From positions 1 to 36,943 of the IMG/VR virus record IMGVR_UViG_3300034106_002197: a stretch of DNA of 36,943 nucleotides. One strand, written 5' to 3'. This document shows, piece by piece, positions 3,692 to 12,137 of this stretch. The position numbers were made by a program, and so were the translations under genes. Position 1 is the stretch's first letter, and every line of letters begins with the position of its first letter. The notes under the pieces are model-generated. The model worked only from the letters and a program-made list of their open reading frames with translations. It was not told where the DNA came from and ran no database searches. This DNA comes from a virus.

Positions 3692-3767
3692 GCTGGCGTA
3701 GCTCAGCAGGCAGAGCAGGGGTTTTGTAAACCTCAGGTCGGGAGTTCGATTCTCTCCGCCAGCACCA
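3692..3767 (+). tRNA. tRNA-Thr (anticodon UGU), CCA encoded
   Basis: The cloverleaf folds completely. A perfect 7-bp acceptor stem pairs 3692-3698 with 3757-3763. The D stem is GCTC/GAGC (3701-3704 with 3713-3716). The anticodon stem is 3718-3722 with 3730-3734, with loop TTTGTAA giving anticodon TGT at 3725-3727. The T stem is 3740-3744 with 3752-3756 around loop TTCGATT. The discriminator base is A3764 and CCA is encoded at 3765-3767. The anticodon reads ACA and, by wobble, other Thr codons. That suits the very Thr-rich, ACA/ACT-rich baseplate genes of this phage. Confidence 0.95.
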
Positions 3768-5263: not shown

Positions 5264-6154
5264 ATGGCATTTTCATTCGCAGACTATAATAAGACTCGTA
5301 AGAATCAGTTTGAGAAACTTGCTTCTCAGCTCACCAAACAGAGTTCTAATTCAAAGGAAGATGATCGTTTCTGGAAACCAGACGTAGACAAAGCTGGTAA
5401 CGGATATGCAGTCATTCGCTTCCTTCCTCCCCATCAAACTGAAGACTATGCTTGGGTTCAATACTTTGACCATGGTTTCCAAGGTCCAGGTGGTTGGTAC
5501 ATCGAAAAGTCTTTGACCACTCTTAATCAGAAAGATCCTGTATCTGAGTACAACTCTCAGCTTTGGAACTCTGGTCTTGAAGAGAACAAAGATGTTGCGC
5601 GTAAGCAAAAGCGTCGTCTACATTATGTGTCTAACATTTATGTAGTCAAAGATCCTTCCAACCCTCAGAACGAAGGCAAGGTCTTTCTCTTTCAATTTGG
5701 TAAGAAGATCTTTGATAAGATCAATGACTTGATGACTCCTCAGTTTCAGGACGAAGAGCCTATCAATCCATTTGACTTGGTCGAAGGTGCTAACTTCAAG
5801 ATGAAGATTCGTCAGGTCGAAGGTTATCGTAACTATGATAAGTCAGAGTTTGATTCAGTTGCGCCTTTGTTTACTGAAGAAGAGAAGTATGATGATGTGT
5901 TGAACAAGATTCAACCTTTGCAGACTTTCTTGGATCCTTCTCAGTTCAAGTCTTATGCTGAACTCAAGGCACGCCTACATCGTGTTCTTGGTTGGGATAA
6001 GAATGCCTTTGAAGAACAGGCACCAAAGACTGCCCGAGCTGAAGAGATGAAGTTTGAGGAACCTAAGAGTCTTAAGTCTACAGAATATGTGGACTCTGAT
6101 ACTTCAGATGACGATGATGGTCTTGACTTCTTTAAGAAGCTAGCTGAAGATTAA
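5264..6154 (+). CDS. 32: gp32, single-stranded DNA-binding protein
   Basis: 296 residues (T4 gp32 has 301). It has the gp32 layout: a basic N-terminal cooperativity domain (KLASQLTK near 18-25), an OB-fold core with FGKKIFDKIND and NPFDLVEGANFKMKI, and an acidic C-terminal tail (DSDTSDDDDGLDFFKKLAED) used to recruit replication partners. The T4 zinc-finger cysteines are absent and the whole protein has no cysteine. AGGAGATATAC before the ATG is a strong ribosome site. Codons are C/G-ending more often than in neighbours, as expected for a very abundant protein. The TAA shares the TTAA at 6151-6154 with the convergent minus-strand gene. Confidence 0.96.
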   Translation: MAFSFADYNKTRKNQFEKLASQLTKQSSNSKEDDRFWKPDVDKAGNGYAVIRFLPPHQTEDYAWVQYFDHGFQGPGGWYIEKSLTTLNQKDPVSEYNSQLWNSGLEENKDVARKQKRRLHYVSNIYVVKDPSNPQNEGKVFLFQFGKKIFDKINDLMTPQFQDEEPINPFDLVEGANFKMKIRQVEGYRNYDKSEFDSVAPLFTEEEKYDDVLNKIQPLQTFLDPSQFKSYAELKARLHRVLGWDKNAFEEQAPKTARAEEMKFEEPKSLKSTEYVDSDTSDDDDGLDFFKKLAED

Positions 6155-7905
6155 CCTGTTAAAGCGACTCCCAAATGAGCATGATATGCATTTTGGATAG
6201 CCGTTGAATTAGGTTTATTTTTAGAAGTTTTATCAGGAGTTACGTCTACAGGTCCTTGTGCAGAAGCTTGTGCATTGACTATCGTAGTCGTAGCTCCTGG
6301 TTCTTCTATCTTAGCTGCCATCGATGCCTTATCAATTTCACTTCCGGTACCGGCTTGTGCAACCATTTGTCCAGAAGCTTCTTCTCCTATCTTAGATCCA
6401 TATTGTTTTTCATATGAAGCAATATGTTCACTATATTTTTCTGCACTATTCGTAGCATATCCAGCTTTAGCTACTTGTAAACCAAATTCTGCTGCGGATC
6501 CTGATTCAATAGCTTTTTTATATCTAGGATTTTTTAGTACGCTTAGATATCCATCAGCAAAATCTTGAAGATCATCGAATTTTGCAAAATAAGATTTTAC
6601 TTGTACCCAATGTTTTCCAGCACTTTCCGCTTTATCAAACGAACCTTTTCCAAACCATTCATCTACTGTTGCTTTTTTACCCTTCTTATCCATTTTAGTA
6701 TCACGTTCTAATACTCGATAAAGTGATTCGCCCGATTGTTGTGCTTTCTTTAATTGTGCATCTGTATATTGTTCTTCTGTAAGAACAAACCCTCCTTTTT
6801 TAAATTTTCCAAAAGCTTTTATACCAGCATAGTTAAAATCTGCTGGCATGCTAGTGCCACTACCAGATTCCCCAGCCCATTGACCTAAAAATGCGATCGG
6901 CGGAACTTTTCCACCTAAACTCTCTGATACATATTTTGCATAAGGAAATAAAGCTTTCGCAAAATCATCTGGATTTGAAAATTTGCCATTAGATCCAGGT
7001 TTAACCTCTCCTTCTTTTACTGGAGTTACTGGTGTACCAGCCGAACTTCCAGCTGCAGATTTAGCAGGTTCTGTACGCTGAGCTACTCCTTTATTATATT
7101 GATCTGTATACGAAGTATTCGCTATACCAGCTTTCTCTTCATCTCGCGCTTGTTGTTCTTTTTGTAGACCTTCTTTTCTCGTGGTAGCTGCTCCTACCAT
7201 CTTCTCAGCTCCTTCAGTAACAGCAGTAACATCTATGCCTAACCAAGAAAGTAATTTACTCGTTTTAACGAAATCTATAAATGAGGTAAGCGCATTGATT
7301 TGTATTTCTTCAGCGAATTGTTTGATTTGATTTATAACTGTCAAAGGAAAATAAAGCAAATTAGTTATTGCATCGCCTATCACCATCGATAGGACGTCCC
7401 ATGCTGCAGGAAGATTTATAGTAAAAAATTTATGTACTGGATCGACTATGTACTCTTTGAATATAGGTCCTAAAAAATCTAGTGCCTCTTTCATTTTATC
7501 ATAAATCATACTAGGCAATTCTTTTATAAACGGTACTGCCTTTTTGATTAGGGCTATTAAAACAGGCGCAAATGCAACTAAAGTTAGTAGAGCAGGTCTT
7601 AAAATGCTAATAATATTGTTTGCAAAATCAGTAAGCTTCTTAATTGCAGGATTTTTCTCAAGTTCATCTAATGGACCTGCTTTGTCACCTGATTCTTCAC
7701 TCTGGCCTTCTTTTGTTGCTGGAGCTTCTTCAGTAAATTTCTCTACTTGAGCTGCTTCTTGAACCTGCTCTCTTTTGTATAAAGCGTTTTCATAGTTTTT
7801 AGTTGTAATTTTAAGCTTTACTATTTCATCTAAAATAGAGTTTAAAATCTTCATTCTCTCTGCGGAATCGTCTTCATTAGGAATAGCTTCTTGTTTATTA
7901 TCCAT
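6151..7905 (-). CDS. tape-measure-like virion protein with GH73-like muramidase domain
   Basis: 584 residues. Residues 1-90 are charged and helical, 98-128 form a hydrophobic segment (ILRPALLTLVAFAPVLIALI), 130-235 are amphipathic helices, and 260-305 are a Pro/Ala/Ser/Gly linker. Residues about 310-515 form a GH73/FlgJ-like glucosaminidase domain: AFLGQWAGESG with likely catalytic Glu346, NYAGIKA (358-364) and late NPRYKKA and KAGYATNSAEKYSEHI. The C terminus contains TTIVNAQAS, a type of tail seen in other marine T4-like virion proteins. It probably sits in the tail tube or hub and cuts peptidoglycan during DNA entry. It begins 2 bases after the 735-aa gene. Whether this or the 735-aa protein is the true tape measure (T4 gp29, 590 aa) is open. 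Confidence 0.75.
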   Translation of the reverse strand: MDNKQEAIPNEDDSAERMKILNSILDEIVKLKITTKNYENALYKREQVQEAAQVEKFTEEAPATKEGQSEESGDKAGPLDELEKNPAIKKLTDFANNIISILRPALLTLVAFAPVLIALIKKAVPFIKELPSMIYDKMKEALDFLGPIFKEYIVDPVHKFFTINLPAAWDVLSMVIGDAITNLLYFPLTVINQIKQFAEEIQINALTSFIDFVKTSKLLSWLGIDVTAVTEGAEKMVGAATTRKEGLQKEQQARDEEKAGIANTSYTDQYNKGVAQRTEPAKSAAGSSAGTPVTPVKEGEVKPGSNGKFSNPDDFAKALFPYAKYVSESLGGKVPPIAFLGQWAGESGSGTSMPADFNYAGIKAFGKFKKGGFVLTEEQYTDAQLKKAQQSGESLYRVLERDTKMDKKGKKATVDEWFGKGSFDKAESAGKHWVQVKSYFAKFDDLQDFADGYLSVLKNPRYKKAIESGSAAEFGLQVAKAGYATNSAEKYSEHIASYEKQYGSKIGEEASGQMVAQAGTGSEIDKASMAAKIEEPGATTTIVNAQASAQGPVDVTPDKTSKNKPNSTAIQNAYHAHLGVALTG

Positions 7906-7907
7906 GA

Positions 7908-10115
7908 TTATGTTTCTCTATAGAATAATTGATCAGCTATTGAACCCATATCTGGAGTAGGATCAGGTACATCGTCTATGCTATGCGGTCTTCCTTTAAC
8001 CATGATAGCTCTACTCGTTGAACCTCCTGATCCAATCACATTGACGCCACCATTATTTTTAGGAATAGGAGCAGTAGCTTCTAATGATTGATTAGTAATG
8101 TTATCTCCTGCTGCAGCTCCTGCTACAGGTACTGGGCTAATCGGACTAGACGCATCTGCTGGAGCTGTTGTTGCTCCAGTTGCTCCAGCTGCTCCAGTTG
8201 ATGGAACTGCTGTTGCGGCGCTTGCTCCAGCTGCTCCAGTTGATGGAACTGCTGTTGCTCCAGCTGCTCCAATTGCTCCAGTTGATGGAACTGCTGTTGC
8301 TCCAGCTGCTCCAGTTGCTCCACCACCCGAACTTCCAGTTGTTCCACTGCCCGAACTTCCAGTTGCAGGAGGTGTAGGCTCAGGTGTTGCTGGAGCTGTA
8401 GTTGCTCCAGATGAACCTTCTGGAGCAACTGGTTTAGGAGTTGCATCTGCTGGCTTTGGAGTTGCATCTGTAGAAGGTTTGCTTGCACCTTCATTAGGCT
8501 TTGGTTTAGAGTTAGATGCTGGAACTAGAGAACCCTTTGATTTAGATTGTTCTGCATCAAATGTTTGCTGTTTAGGATCATTTATAAGAGCATCTTTAGG
8601 CGTATAGTTTATAGTAACCGTATTTTTTGCAGTATCGACCTTTACATCATAGCCATCATATTCTTTATTGTTTTTTAGAAATTCTTCGGCACGGGCTTCC
8701 GCCATTTTTTCTAAATTTTTATTCTTTTCTTTCTCTTTCTTTTTTTGTTCAGATTCAAGTTTTTTCTTATCAAGATCACTTAGGTCTTTATCTGCGTCGT
8801 CTACAAGACCTTTTCCAAAAGTTTTAATTGTATCTTTTAATGCACCTGCTCCAGGTAATGTAATCTTATCAGCTAAATCCATGATAGTTTGGCCAATTGA
8901 TTTTTTAATATTGGCCACAACAGTTTGTATTGTAATTGCAAAATCTGATGCCATATCAGATATAGCATCTACTTTTTCTTCAAATAGCTTGGGTAACGTT
9001 TCCATGAAGAATTTTGGTAAAGTCTCTGTAAAAAACTTTGGCAGATCTTCCATAACAAAATCTAATGCTTTTGTTATCAATGGTTTTACATAGTTATTGA
9101 CAAGTCCAAGTATTACTGGATATACGCCTATGATAGCTAAAGCTATTATCCTTTCAACTCCCATGAATACATCAAATATGTTTCCGACAAAATCTAAAAA
9201 TTTAGCTAATGCTCCCTTTTTAGCAGTACCTTTAGCTTCAGGTTTATTTTCTGATTTAGCATCTGAACTAGGAGGAGGAACAGTATCTGCGGTTAACATT
9301 TTAAAAATGTTATCAAATGATTTATTGATCTCTACTAAGTTATCATGTATCTGAGAAAATATATCTGCATCAGGAGATTCTTTTGCAGCATTTTCTTCAA
9401 GACGTTTTTGAACGTCCTTTTTACCGATCATTAAATTTTCACGATCACCTTCGAGTTCATGAAATCTTTGAGTTTTAGTATCATATCTTACTTTTGCGGC
9501 TTTTAATTCTTCTTCAGATGCTCCTAAAGGATTTTCTTTTACTGCATCGGGCTTCTTAGTAGATTTTTCTGATTTATTAACTTTTTTTGCATCATCATTA
9601 GCAGGTTCAGGTGTATCTGCATTTTCTAAGTTAATTATTTTATCTTCAAGATCGCGAGTTATATTTTCCAGATCATCCAATCGTTCATTAATGCTATTGT
9701 AATCGGTTTTTAGATCAACTGATTGTACTGGTTCTGCTACAGGTTTAACTGGTTCTTGTTCAGTTTTTTTATCTACTTGCTCATCTATTTTAAGAGCGAT
9801 TTCTTCTGCAGGTACCTCAATTGGGAGAATTGGTTGTACTTCTGTCTCATTATGAGAAGCGGCACTTTCTAACTCATCGATTTTAATCGCTTGTTCTTTT
9901 AATTGATCATCATGTTCATCTAGTTTTTCATTTATATCATTTAATCTTTTGTTGACTTGATTATCACTAGATCTAACGTCATCTATTTTTTTATCTACTT
10001 CTTTATATTTTTCAGTTCTCTTTCTTCCATATAGAGCTGGATCTTCTAGTTTGGCAAGCTTATCATTTAAAGATTTAAAAATCTTCTTGATTTTTTTTAA
10101 CGATTCTTCGTTCAT
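7908..10115 (-). CDS. large coiled-coil tail/hub virion protein, tape-measure candidate
   Basis: 735 residues. The parts in order are: a coiled coil (1-165, many heptads such as KRLNDINEKLDEHDDQLKEQ); an acidic/Lys linker; a second helical block (198-275); a hydrophobic stretch (305-350); a tandem amphipathic repeat of LPKFF.ET type (358-380); a charged helix (440-480); a small beta-like part (485-510); a Pro/Ala/Thr/Gly-rich region (530-670) with tandem repeats; and a C-terminal tail with NVIGSGGST. It lies next to the gp26/gp51-like chaperone frame, where long-tailed phages usually encode the tape measure, and shares its architecture with the following 584-aa gene. No enzyme motif is seen. 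The ATG directly follows the upstream stop. Confidence 0.65.
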   Translation of the reverse strand: MNEESLKKIKKIFKSLNDKLAKLEDPALYGRKRTEKYKEVDKKIDDVRSSDNQVNKRLNDINEKLDEHDDQLKEQAIKIDELESAASHNETEVQPILPIEVPAEEIALKIDEQVDKKTEQEPVKPVAEPVQSVDLKTDYNSINERLDDLENITRDLEDKIINLENADTPEPANDDAKKVNKSEKSTKKPDAVKENPLGASEEELKAAKVRYDTKTQRFHELEGDRENLMIGKKDVQKRLEENAAKESPDADIFSQIHDNLVEINKSFDNIFKMLTADTVPPPSSDAKSENKPEAKGTAKKGALAKFLDFVGNIFDVFMGVERIIALAIIGVYPVILGLVNNYVKPLITKALDFVMEDLPKFFTETLPKFFMETLPKLFEEKVDAISDMASDFAITIQTVVANIKKSIGQTIMDLADKITLPGAGALKDTIKTFGKGLVDDADKDLSDLDKKKLESEQKKKEKEKNKNLEKMAEARAEEFLKNNKEYDGYDVKVDTAKNTVTINYTPKDALINDPKQQTFDAEQSKSKGSLVPASNSKPKPNEGASKPSTDATPKPADATPKPVAPEGSSGATTAPATPEPTPPATGSSGSGTTGSSGGGATGAAGATAVPSTGAIGAAGATAVPSTGAAGASAATAVPSTGAAGATGATTAPADASSPISPVPVAGAAAGDNITNQSLEATAPIPKNNGGVNVIGSGGSTSRAIMVKGRPHSIDDVPDPTPDMGSIADQLFYRET
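8160..8320 (-). repeat. tandem low-complexity repeat coding for Gly/Ala/Thr/Pro units
   Basis: Within the 735-aa gene, about four imperfect units of 42-45 bases (plus-strand core gttgatggaactgctgttg) encode copies of GAAGATAVPST and relatives (residues about 600-652). On the plus strand the same DNA produces spurious long open frames. Unit number is likely to vary between relatives through slippage. Confidence 0.8.
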
Positions 10116-10391
10116 TTAGTTTTTACTCGCCCAAGTAGTGAAACCCATGTATGCGCCTATAACTGAAGCCATTGCTATGTAGAACATTCCAAAGACATTA
10201 TCTAATGCCTTTATTCTGTCATCAGTAATAAGAGGAGACAAAAGAATTGCAGTAAAAACTACCATAGAATACAAAGCAAGCCATGCCATTCTACGGCGAT
10301 TTTTAAACTTATCTTCTGCAATATTTACTTCCACTTTTGATATTTTACCGTCATGATCTATGTCTATTTTTTCTTCTGTCTCTTCTGACAT
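10116..10391 (-). CDS. small membrane protein with a canonical EF-hand loop
   Basis: 91 residues. Near the N terminus the 12-residue stretch DIDHDGKISKVE has Asp at 1, 3 and 5, Gly at 6, Ile at 8 and Glu at 12, a textbook EF-hand/dockerin-like Ca-binding loop. A basic stretch (KFKNRRR) is followed by two hydrophobic segments, about 35-53 (MAWLALYSMVVFTAILLSP) and about 68-86 (FGMFYIAMASVIGAYMGF), separated by a charged loop. The size and two helices would suit a holin or a small virion membrane protein, but its place inside the baseplate operon is unusual for a holin. The ATG overlaps the TAA of the gp51-like frame (TAATG). The exact role is unknown. Confidence 0.75.
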   Translation of the reverse strand: MSEETEEKIDIDHDGKISKVEVNIAEDKFKNRRRMAWLALYSMVVFTAILLSPLITDDRIKALDNVFGMFYIAMASVIGAYMGFTTWASKN

Positions 10392-10576
10392 TATCTGTAA
10401 GCTTTCTCTCTTCGTTCTTTTTCTTCTTTTAAATATTGCAAAAGCATATCTACATAAATATCTCTTTCAAATGGCATCAATTCTTCTATTTCTGTTATCG
10501 AGTATTTGTGGTGCTGAGCCATCGCAAAAACTGTTGTATAATAGTTTTTTAGACTCGTGTGACTCAGCCCTATGTA
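10391..10576 (-). CDS. 51: gp51-like tail/hub assembly chaperone frame, reached by -1 frameshift from gp26
   Basis: 61 codons follow gp26 in the -1 frame and end at a TAA that overlaps the next ATG. The peptide begins YIGLSHTSLKNYY and contains AQHHKYSITEIEELMPFER, then a charged helix ending EEKERREKAYR. This resembles the extension part of tail assembly chaperones (the gpT part of lambda gpG-gpT) and the place of T4 gene 51 after 26. It lacks a convincing start of its own: the only ATG before the conserved core has no Shine-Dalgarno and cuts off the first 18 codons. Translation through the slippery site 10576-10582 would give a fused product of about 292 residues. Coding is clear; the gp51 label is tentative. 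Confidence 0.7.
   Translation of the reverse strand, partial: YIGLSHTSLKNYYTTVFAMAQHHKYSITEIEELMPFERDIYVDMLLQYLKEEKERREKAYR
10513..10568 (-). promoter_or_regulatory. frameshift-stimulating stem-loop downstream of the gp26 slippery site
   Basis: On the minus strand GCTGAGTC (10568-10561) pairs with GGCTCAGC (10520-10513): eight base pairs with one G-U. Inside the loop AAAAAC and GTTTTT (10549-10544 and 10531-10526) form a second stem. The first stem begins seven bases after the slippery heptamer, the usual distance for -1 frameshift stimulators. Confidence 0.6.
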
Positions 10577-11268
10577 AAAAAATCTTGCATAGAACTCAAT
10601 TTAATAACTCTATCATGTCCTAATGAATTTTTATAATGTAGTTCATGATAAAGCTTAGGCATCGTAATAAAAAACTGTTCTATCTTTTTAAACGATTTTG
10701 TGTCTAGATTTTCAAGGAAATCAATGAGTTCTTGTTCAGTACTTTCTTTAGCTGGATAAACATTTTCTTTATCATAGATTACATCAATGGTGTGTATAAG
10801 GATCTTATTGAGTAACTCATTTTGATCAGTTATACTTGACATCTTTTCGGTAATTTTGACACTTGGAAACTTTAATATCATACCGACTTCATCATTGATC
10901 TGAATTTTTTTATCATTTTCAGGATCGAATTTGATTTCTACTTCATCTAGATTAACTTCGAAATCATAGACTTCGTCATCTTCATTATCGCGATATCTGA
11001 GTTTAGCGATATTGTTTACAGACCTAGATCTAAGCTTTAAAAATACATATTCTAGATCAAACGTAGTTAGATCATCTATATTCAAATCATCGAAGCAACA
11101 ATTGTTTATGATTTGTTTTAGCGAAAACAGTATATCGTTATTTTCACCTTGTTGTGCCATAAGCAAAAGCTTTTCTTCTTTCACTAGAAAAGGTCTAAAT
11201 TTCATTTCCCTTTCAATAGAAGGAATCTTAATCGTGAATACCGGCGTTGCAATTTTTGGTAAAGCCAT
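10570..11268 (-). CDS. 26: gp26, baseplate hub subunit / assembly protein
   Basis: 232 residues (T4 gp26 has 208). The N terminus MALPKIATPVFTIKIPS, then KFRPFLVKEEKLLLMAQQ, and FDLEYVFLKLRSRSV are typical of gp26 in marine T4-like phages. The C terminus has FFITMPKLYHELHYKN and ends SSMQDFFT. It takes part in assembly of the baseplate hub. An AGGAGTATAGT before the ATG is a strong ribosome site. The stop TAG is reached just after the slippery TTTTTTT, so a fraction of ribosomes may make a longer gp26-gp51-like fusion. Upstream lies gp54, downstream the EF-hand membrane gene, all on the same strand. Confidence 0.88.
   Translation of the reverse strand: MALPKIATPVFTIKIPSIEREMKFRPFLVKEEKLLLMAQQGENNDILFSLKQIINNCCFDDLNIDDLTTFDLEYVFLKLRSRSVNNIAKLRYRDNEDDEVYDFEVNLDEVEIKFDPENDKKIQINDEVGMILKFPSVKITEKMSSITDQNELLNKILIHTIDVIYDKENVYPAKESTEQELIDFLENLDTKSFKKIEQFFITMPKLYHELHYKNSLGHDRVIKLSSMQDFFT
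10576..10582 (-). promoter_or_regulatory. -1 ribosomal frameshift slippery heptamer T TTT TTT
   Basis: In the gp26 frame the codons are GAT TTT TTT ACA TAG. Seven consecutive T residues make an ideal X XXY YYZ heptamer two codons before the gp26 stop. A -1 slip continues as TAC ATA GGG into the open gp51-like frame. Confidence 0.7.
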
Positions 11269-11285
11269 ACTATACTCCTAATTAT

Positions 11286-12137
11286 TTAAAAAAATCCTGA
11301 CAAACCACCGCCAATTATATTGGCATTATTGACTAAATTAATAGCATCTCCTACGCTTTGAGGTTTCTTTAATGCTGCTACTGTTGATACTATAGATCCT
11401 AACTTCATTATTTTCTGAAACGTTGATAAGCCAAAAGAAGATTCTGTTCCCGATGACTCAAATCTATCCGTGTGCCACGTCTTATAATAAAAATTTACAC
11501 CTATATTCATCATACTGTTTTGATCTGCCCAATTCATAGCTACTTGTGATAGTCTATATGGAAATGCATCTAATATCTGATATCTAAGTATTACGTCAGA
11601 CTGTGGATTAAATACTAAAATTTCTATATTACATGTGTATGAATCTTTATACGCAACTTTAAAGAATGAATTTGTTTCTTTTCTATTATCAAACATTACT
11701 ATACTATTCATCCAATTTTGAAAAAACGACATGACATTTCCTTTGCCGTCTCCAATAAATTGAAGTTCTATATCACCAAACACTGCAGTATGAGGAAATC
11801 TTTCTACAGGTCCAACTCCATGTATTATATTTTCTTCTACTGCAAGATCTACTCCTGGTAAATCAGTTTTCATACAAAAAAAACTAAGAGTTTTAGGATC
11901 TAATCGTTCACTTTGCATCAACTGATTAACTTTATTTTCAGTAAATGAATTTTTATTAACCGGGTAAAGAGATACTAAGAATAAATTTGTAGGCAATATA
12001 GATCTTGCACCCAAATTACTTCTAAACTCTTCAATATCAAATCCAGCGCTCTTTCTTTTTGGTAAAGAGCCATTGATACCTAAAAAACTAGAAATTTTAC
12101 TAGTTATAGCGTCAGTAAAAGTTGATGGACCTGACAT
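11286..12137 (-). CDS. 54: gp54, baseplate tail tube initiator
   Basis: 283 residues (T4 gp54 has 320). It carries the tail-tube-like beta fold: TDLPGVDLAVEENIIHG, a segment VERFPHTAVFGDIELQFIGD, FFQNWMNSIV and LRYQILDAFPYRLSQVAM, then MNIGVNFYYKTW. In T4, gp54 sits on the finished hub with gp48 and nucleates polymerisation of the gp19 tube. The start ATG directly follows the previous stop, with AAGGAAC as ribosome site. A C-terminal Gly/Phe tail (IIGGGLSGFF) closes it. Its partner gp48 lies in the divergent plus-strand operon, whereas in T4 48 and 54 are adjacent on one strand. Confidence 0.9.
   Translation of the reverse strand: MSGPSTFTDAITSKISSFLGINGSLPKRKSAGFDIEEFRSNLGARSILPTNLFLVSLYPVNKNSFTENKVNQLMQSERLDPKTLSFFCMKTDLPGVDLAVEENIIHGVGPVERFPHTAVFGDIELQFIGDGKGNVMSFFQNWMNSIVMFDNRKETNSFFKVAYKDSYTCNIEILVFNPQSDVILRYQILDAFPYRLSQVAMNWADQNSMMNIGVNFYYKTWHTDRFESSGTESSFGLSTFQKIMKLGSIVSTVAALKKPQSVGDAINLVNNANIIGGGLSGFF

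Follow-up and report, generated by a model that had tools for sequence, protein, structure and literature searches.

The T4-like virus analyzed here, represented by a window of 36,943 nucleotides (IMG/VR record IMGVR_UViG_3300034106_002197, positions 1 to 36,943), appears to encode two forms of one tail-building helper protein in a single gene. Very probably, a programmed -1 frameshift at the end of gp26 yields a short and a long form of a tail assembly chaperone. This is the best reading of a comparison across related phages, because that comparison revealed an open -1 frame under selection, a conserved slippery heptamer, a covarying downstream stem, the lack of a start codon for the second frame, and homology to both gp26 and gp51 of T4.

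The features of the locus are collected in Table 1. The heptamer, the -1 frame and the TAATG overlap with the following gene, all described in the initial annotation, were confirmed from the sequence. The 3' end of gp26 reads GAT TTT TTT ACA TAG, with the heptamer in phase and two codons ahead of the stop. The gp26 product matches PF12322 (E 7.5e-49; 166.8 bits against a cut-off of 24.5; residues 11-231) and phrog_150 (E 5.4e-55), and is predicted to be an alpha/beta protein (AlphaFold2 pLDDT 87.4). The -1 frame product matches phrog_634, annotated as baseplate hub assembly catalyst (E 1.5e-25), in an alignment that spans positions 60-115 of 121, the C-terminal half of the profile, and is predicted to form three helices (pLDDT 77.6); both folds come from the two halves modeled separately as two chains. 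The predicted products are thus a short form of 232 aa and a long form of 231 + 61 = 292 aa, the latter extended at its C terminus, encoded within a tail gene cluster.

Table 1. Features of the gp26 locus and its downstream genes in the window.
Feature	Coordinates	Strand	Basis
gp26 / short chaperone form, 232 aa, zero frame	10570..11268	-	PF12322, phrog_150, AlphaFold2
Slippery heptamer T TTT TTT (codons GAT TTT TTT)	10576..10582	-	Sequence; kept in relatives
Zero-frame stop TAG of gp26	10570..10572	-	Sequence
7-nt spacer, heptamer to stem	10569..10575	-	Sequence and fold
Putative stimulatory stem, 5' arm (GCTGAGTCA)	10560..10568	-	Fold, covariation
Inner hairpin in stem loop (10549-10543 with 10532-10526)	10526..10549	-	Window fold
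Putative stimulatory stem, 3' arm (TGGCTCAGC)	10513..10521	-	Fold, covariation
-1 frame extension, gp51-type helical domain, 61 codons plus TAA (10393-10391)	10391..10576	-	phrog_634, pN/pS, predicted fold
Next gene, 91 aa, ATG 10391-10389 in TAATG overlap with the -1 frame TAA	10116..10391	-	Weak phrog_27150 match, E 8e-10
735-aa protein with G/A/T/P-rich low-complexity stretches	7908-10115	-	Candidate tape measure
584-aa protein with glucosaminidase domain, same gene run, downstream	6151-7905	-	PF01832, E 3.4e-9

Upstream of gp26 lies a tail tube-type gene (11286-12137, phrog_45), and PHROG matches place genes for the DNA end protector, head closure and the tube cap in its vicinity. Downstream, tape-measure-like genes had been proposed. 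The suggestion is plausible but unsupported: for the 735-aa protein, encoded after the 91-aa gene, Pfam and PHROG profile searches returned no family match of any kind, no tape-measure family was matched by either it or the 584-aa protein, and an annotated tape measure fragment of Cr30 matched none of the window's downstream proteins. The 584-aa protein is possibly a tail-associated lysin. The window also carries a tRNA-Thr gene with a TGT anticodon (3692-3767, plus strand).

To assess conservation of the site, relatives were collected with gp26 protein patterns from outside the frameshift site and were supplemented with annotated phages, giving 177 gp26 loci that fell into 111 clusters at 85% identity. 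A T TTT TTN heptamer, in phase and no more than 31 nt from the gp26 stop, was present in 107 of the 111 clusters, starting 7 to 31 nt ahead of the stop. The four clusters that lack it (three Ackermannviridae and Cygsa01) form a single clade in the tree, and only to this branch does the condition proposed as refuting the frameshift, relatives with their own start and no slippery run, apply. The final base of the heptamer was T in 55 clusters, C in 50, A in one and G in one, all of them compatible with tandem slippage. The first Phe codon was TTT in all 107 clusters, and the codon before it was always NNT (GAT 51, AGT 32, AAT 12, TCT 9, GCT 2, ACT 1) while encoding Asp, Ser, Asn, Ala or Thr. Elsewhere in the same genes TTT and TTC occurred 834 and 382 times, and NNT and other codons 1074 and 570 times. 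The summed log10 P of the conserved heptamer codons was -45 when clusters were treated as independent, a value that is overstated since the clusters are phylogenetically related. Because the heptamer is conserved, also in relatives with only six T, the T run is no assembly error.

The -1 frame was open for 51-75 codons at every complete locus. In comparisons of the window with its close relatives, the pN/pS of this frame was 0.10-0.15; third positions showed 19-27 changes, first and second positions 2-6 each. The claim that this frame has no convincing start also held: in the window the -1 frame showed no ATG, GTG or TTG from its upstream stop as far as 29 bases beyond the stop of gp26; its first ATG, at 10522, lies within the conserved domain, so that a start there would lose the conserved stretch GLSHTSLKNYYTTVFA. 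Across the relatives, 57 of 105 clusters, among them that of the window, had no ATG, GTG or TTG in the -1 frame up to position +17 from the stop; among the remainder, ATG was present in 31/105 and GTG or TTG in 17/105. An independent start for the -1 frame of the window was rejected on the strength of this census together with the conserved residues upstream of the first ATG.

Seven nucleotides past the heptamer the window can form a stem with one G-U pair, as the initial annotation had described, but of 9 bp rather than 8. An 86-nt RNA from the window folds at -19.6 kcal/mol (z = -3.8), a stability matched by none of 200 shuffles. Across the stem positions of 38 relatives, selected on the basis of the gp26 tree, 91.8% of cells were paired, compared to 21-32% when the arms were slid by 1-3 columns; two-sided changes affected six of the nine pairs, as many as were reached in only 2 of 500 shuffles, and RNAalifold recovered the same 9-bp helix independently. 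Heptamer, spacer and stem are thus conserved in the alignment of related gp26 loci, with compensatory changes. The second stem that had been noted inside the loop appears in the window fold but is absent from the consensus fold of the relatives, and for this reason no function is claimed for it. Over all clusters, the 62-nt stretch 3' of the site had a mean z of -1.83, whereas six control stretches ranged from -0.44 to +0.11. Inspection by eye revealed a shorter hairpin about 8 nt past the heptamer in cyanophages and a long hairpin in S-PM2. At one locus (L162:2190-2261) the clade-wide stem is weakened, but a local 7-bp hairpin, GGCTGAG/CTCAGCC, lies about as far from the heptamer as that stem. 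An Rfam search at the frameshift site returned no family. Many relatives have a GAGGG-like sequence 8-10 nt upstream of the heptamer, where the Glu codon of a Glu-Gly motif is GAG in 30 of 49 cases, compared to 285 of 1102 elsewhere (P 5e-7). This preference fits a Shine-Dalgarno-type stimulator, although no clear one was seen upstream of the heptamer in the window itself.

These conserved signals support the proposal that a programmed -1 frameshift appends a gp51-like domain to gp26. Most ribosomes translating gp26 would end at the TAG, producing the 232-aa protein, whereas a fraction would be paused by the downstream stem and slip one base back on T TTT TTT through tandem re-pairing of the Phe tRNAs. 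The shifted ribosomes would read 61 more codons to give a 292-aa protein bearing the gp51-type helical domain, presumably as the minority product. The two proteins would then serve as short and long tail assembly chaperones in tail or hub assembly, in the manner of gpG and gpGT of lambda. We infer the occurrence of slippage, its efficiency and the chaperone role of the gp26 products, the last from homology, gene position and prior literature.

In an alternative view gp51 is a gene of its own in the -1 frame, translated either from its own start or through termination-reinitiation once ribosomes reach the stop of gp26, and the T run is incidental. This view draws on the 31 clusters with an ATG close to where the frame should begin, which in some of them (KVP40, Cr30, BUCT608) forms a TAATG or TGATG overlap, and on the public records of many phages, where the frame is annotated as a separate gene. 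We consider it very unlikely, as 57 clusters, among them the window, offer no reachable start, the heptamer is kept whether an ATG is present or not, and conserved residues precede the first ATG of the window. Nonetheless, a separate short product is possible in the 31 ATG-bearing clusters, and both routes could then operate, with the long form made by frameshifting everywhere and a free gp51 domain made in addition in those lineages. The joint occurrence of heptamer and ATG in cyanophages, KVP40-like phages and Cr30 speaks for such a combination, which has no application to the window, where no usable start exists; we view it as a possible but rather unlikely arrangement.

A long form could also arise by slippage of RNA polymerase, not of the ribosome, on the T run, which has seven or more T in the window and in about half of the clusters. 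In the other half the run stops at six T and the next base is C, A or G, and six T is a short run for polymerase slippage. Moreover, a phased heptamer followed at fixed spacing by a covarying stem fits the ribosome, which leaves the polymerase a highly improbable agent.

In T4, genes 26 and 51 had been described as separate. Two genes are indeed present, but gp51 is itself gp26-like and carries an extension. PF12322 is matched by both T4 gp26 (8.8e-64) and T4 gp51 (3.9e-52), and gp51 also matches phrog_150 nearly end to end (3-248) in addition to phrog_634. A profile built from the -1 domains detected T4 gp51 with an E value of 3.5e-5, the best of 2000 shuffled decoys reaching 0.8. T4 gp26 is therefore the homolog of the short form of the window, whereas T4 gp51 has the same N-domain plus a C-terminal extension, like the predicted long form. 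T4 gene 26 has TTC TTT at the heptamer position and thus no heptamer, so that two separate genes in T4 stand against one gene with a frameshift signal in the window. From these profile matches T4 apparently makes both forms from two genes, and its gp51 appears to be a long form made without frameshifting. The phylogenetic tree places T4-type gp26 and gp51 on one side of a branch and all other gp26 proteins on the other, with a support of 91/80 that is below the strict threshold, in a tree with long branches; this topology is compatible with a gp26/gp51 duplication in the T4 lineage. Both T4 proteins have been listed among the hub assembly chaperones (PMC3004832).

In the Ackermannviridae (L093, L094, L098, L196-L213, L184) a gp51-type domain follows gp26 in the -1 frame without T TTT TTN; the site reads ATTTTCATTTAATTTTTGAA, and ATT or ATC stands in place of the ATG of L210-L212, VAP7 and Cygsa01; the domain is unannotated in the records of PWKp5, 3M and Maynard. 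These phages may initiate at a rare codon or slip in another way. A broader proposal, which we hold tentatively and at somewhat less than even confidence, is that frameshifting is the general route to the long chaperone in most T4-like phages, the separate genes 26 and 51 of T4 representing a derived duplication and the Ackermannviridae using another route (an ATT/ATC start or a non-canonical slip).

Public records treat the domain inconsistently. It is omitted from those of ACG-2014e and AS-szw and begun at an internal ATG in those of Mosig, Melnitz and HTVC008M, and a ribosomal slippage join appears in none of the public phage records examined. A common group of marine phages could thus be given a corrected annotation. 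Cyanophage gp51 has been described as about 20% of the T4 length, and gp51 as absent in Aeh1 (Sullivan et al., PMC3037559). This puzzle would be explained if the 200 residues missing from cyanophage gp51 were gp26, joined to it by the frameshift. In the Aeromonas phages AS-szw and PX29 the heptamer and the -1 domain are present, either unannotated or as a hypothetical protein, and a general frameshift, if real, would account both for the truncated-looking gp51 of cyanophages and for the apparent lack of gp51 in some Aeromonas phages.

Chaperones of two lengths in T4-like phages have a published precedent. A passage in PMC10885494 credits Vladimirov et al. 2022 with the short (TAC-N) and long (TAC-NC) forms and, in summarizing that work, states that some T4-like phages, instead of frameshifting, encode the short form in one gene and the long form in a second, fused one, while a statement in PMC12846349 cites the same study for poly-T slippery sites in T4-like TAC-N genes; the title of Vladimirov, Gautam and Davidson 2022 (doi 10.1016/j.virol.2021.11.003) argues for a non-frameshift mechanism. 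Our results on T4 gp26 and gp51 agree with the two-form scheme as summarized in these sources, and on their account the frameshift idea is less new than first thought. Our own contributions are the results on the lineage of the window, on the covarying stem and on the census of start codons. The case itself is well supported, and to the known two-form chaperones it adds evidence on signal conservation and on annotation errors.

In lambda, the short chaperone gpG ends near a slippery heptamer and the long form gpGT gains its C-terminal domain through a shift into the -1 frame, both being encoded in the tail gene cluster. The predicted gp26 cassette resembles lambda-type chaperones in its short form, its slippery heptamer and its C-terminal extension in the -1 frame, but the heptamer is different, no sequence similarity was shown, and the fold match is limited to a weak one with the HK97 chaperone 2ob9, which was the highest-probability PDB match listed by Foldseek (probability 0.41, but E 1.5). 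No Foldseek match had an E value below 0.001, and a PDB sequence search with gp26 and T4 gp51 returned nothing meaningful. At the chaperone locus of Pakpunavirus/Vandenendeviridae and Andersonviridae, described with phage Adele, a conserved poly-T motif closes the short gene and the -1 frame is open in all genomes (PMC12846349). The motif of those groups is GTTTTT, whereas that of the gp26 clusters is T TTT TTN, and the likeness drawn here is one of motif and frame.
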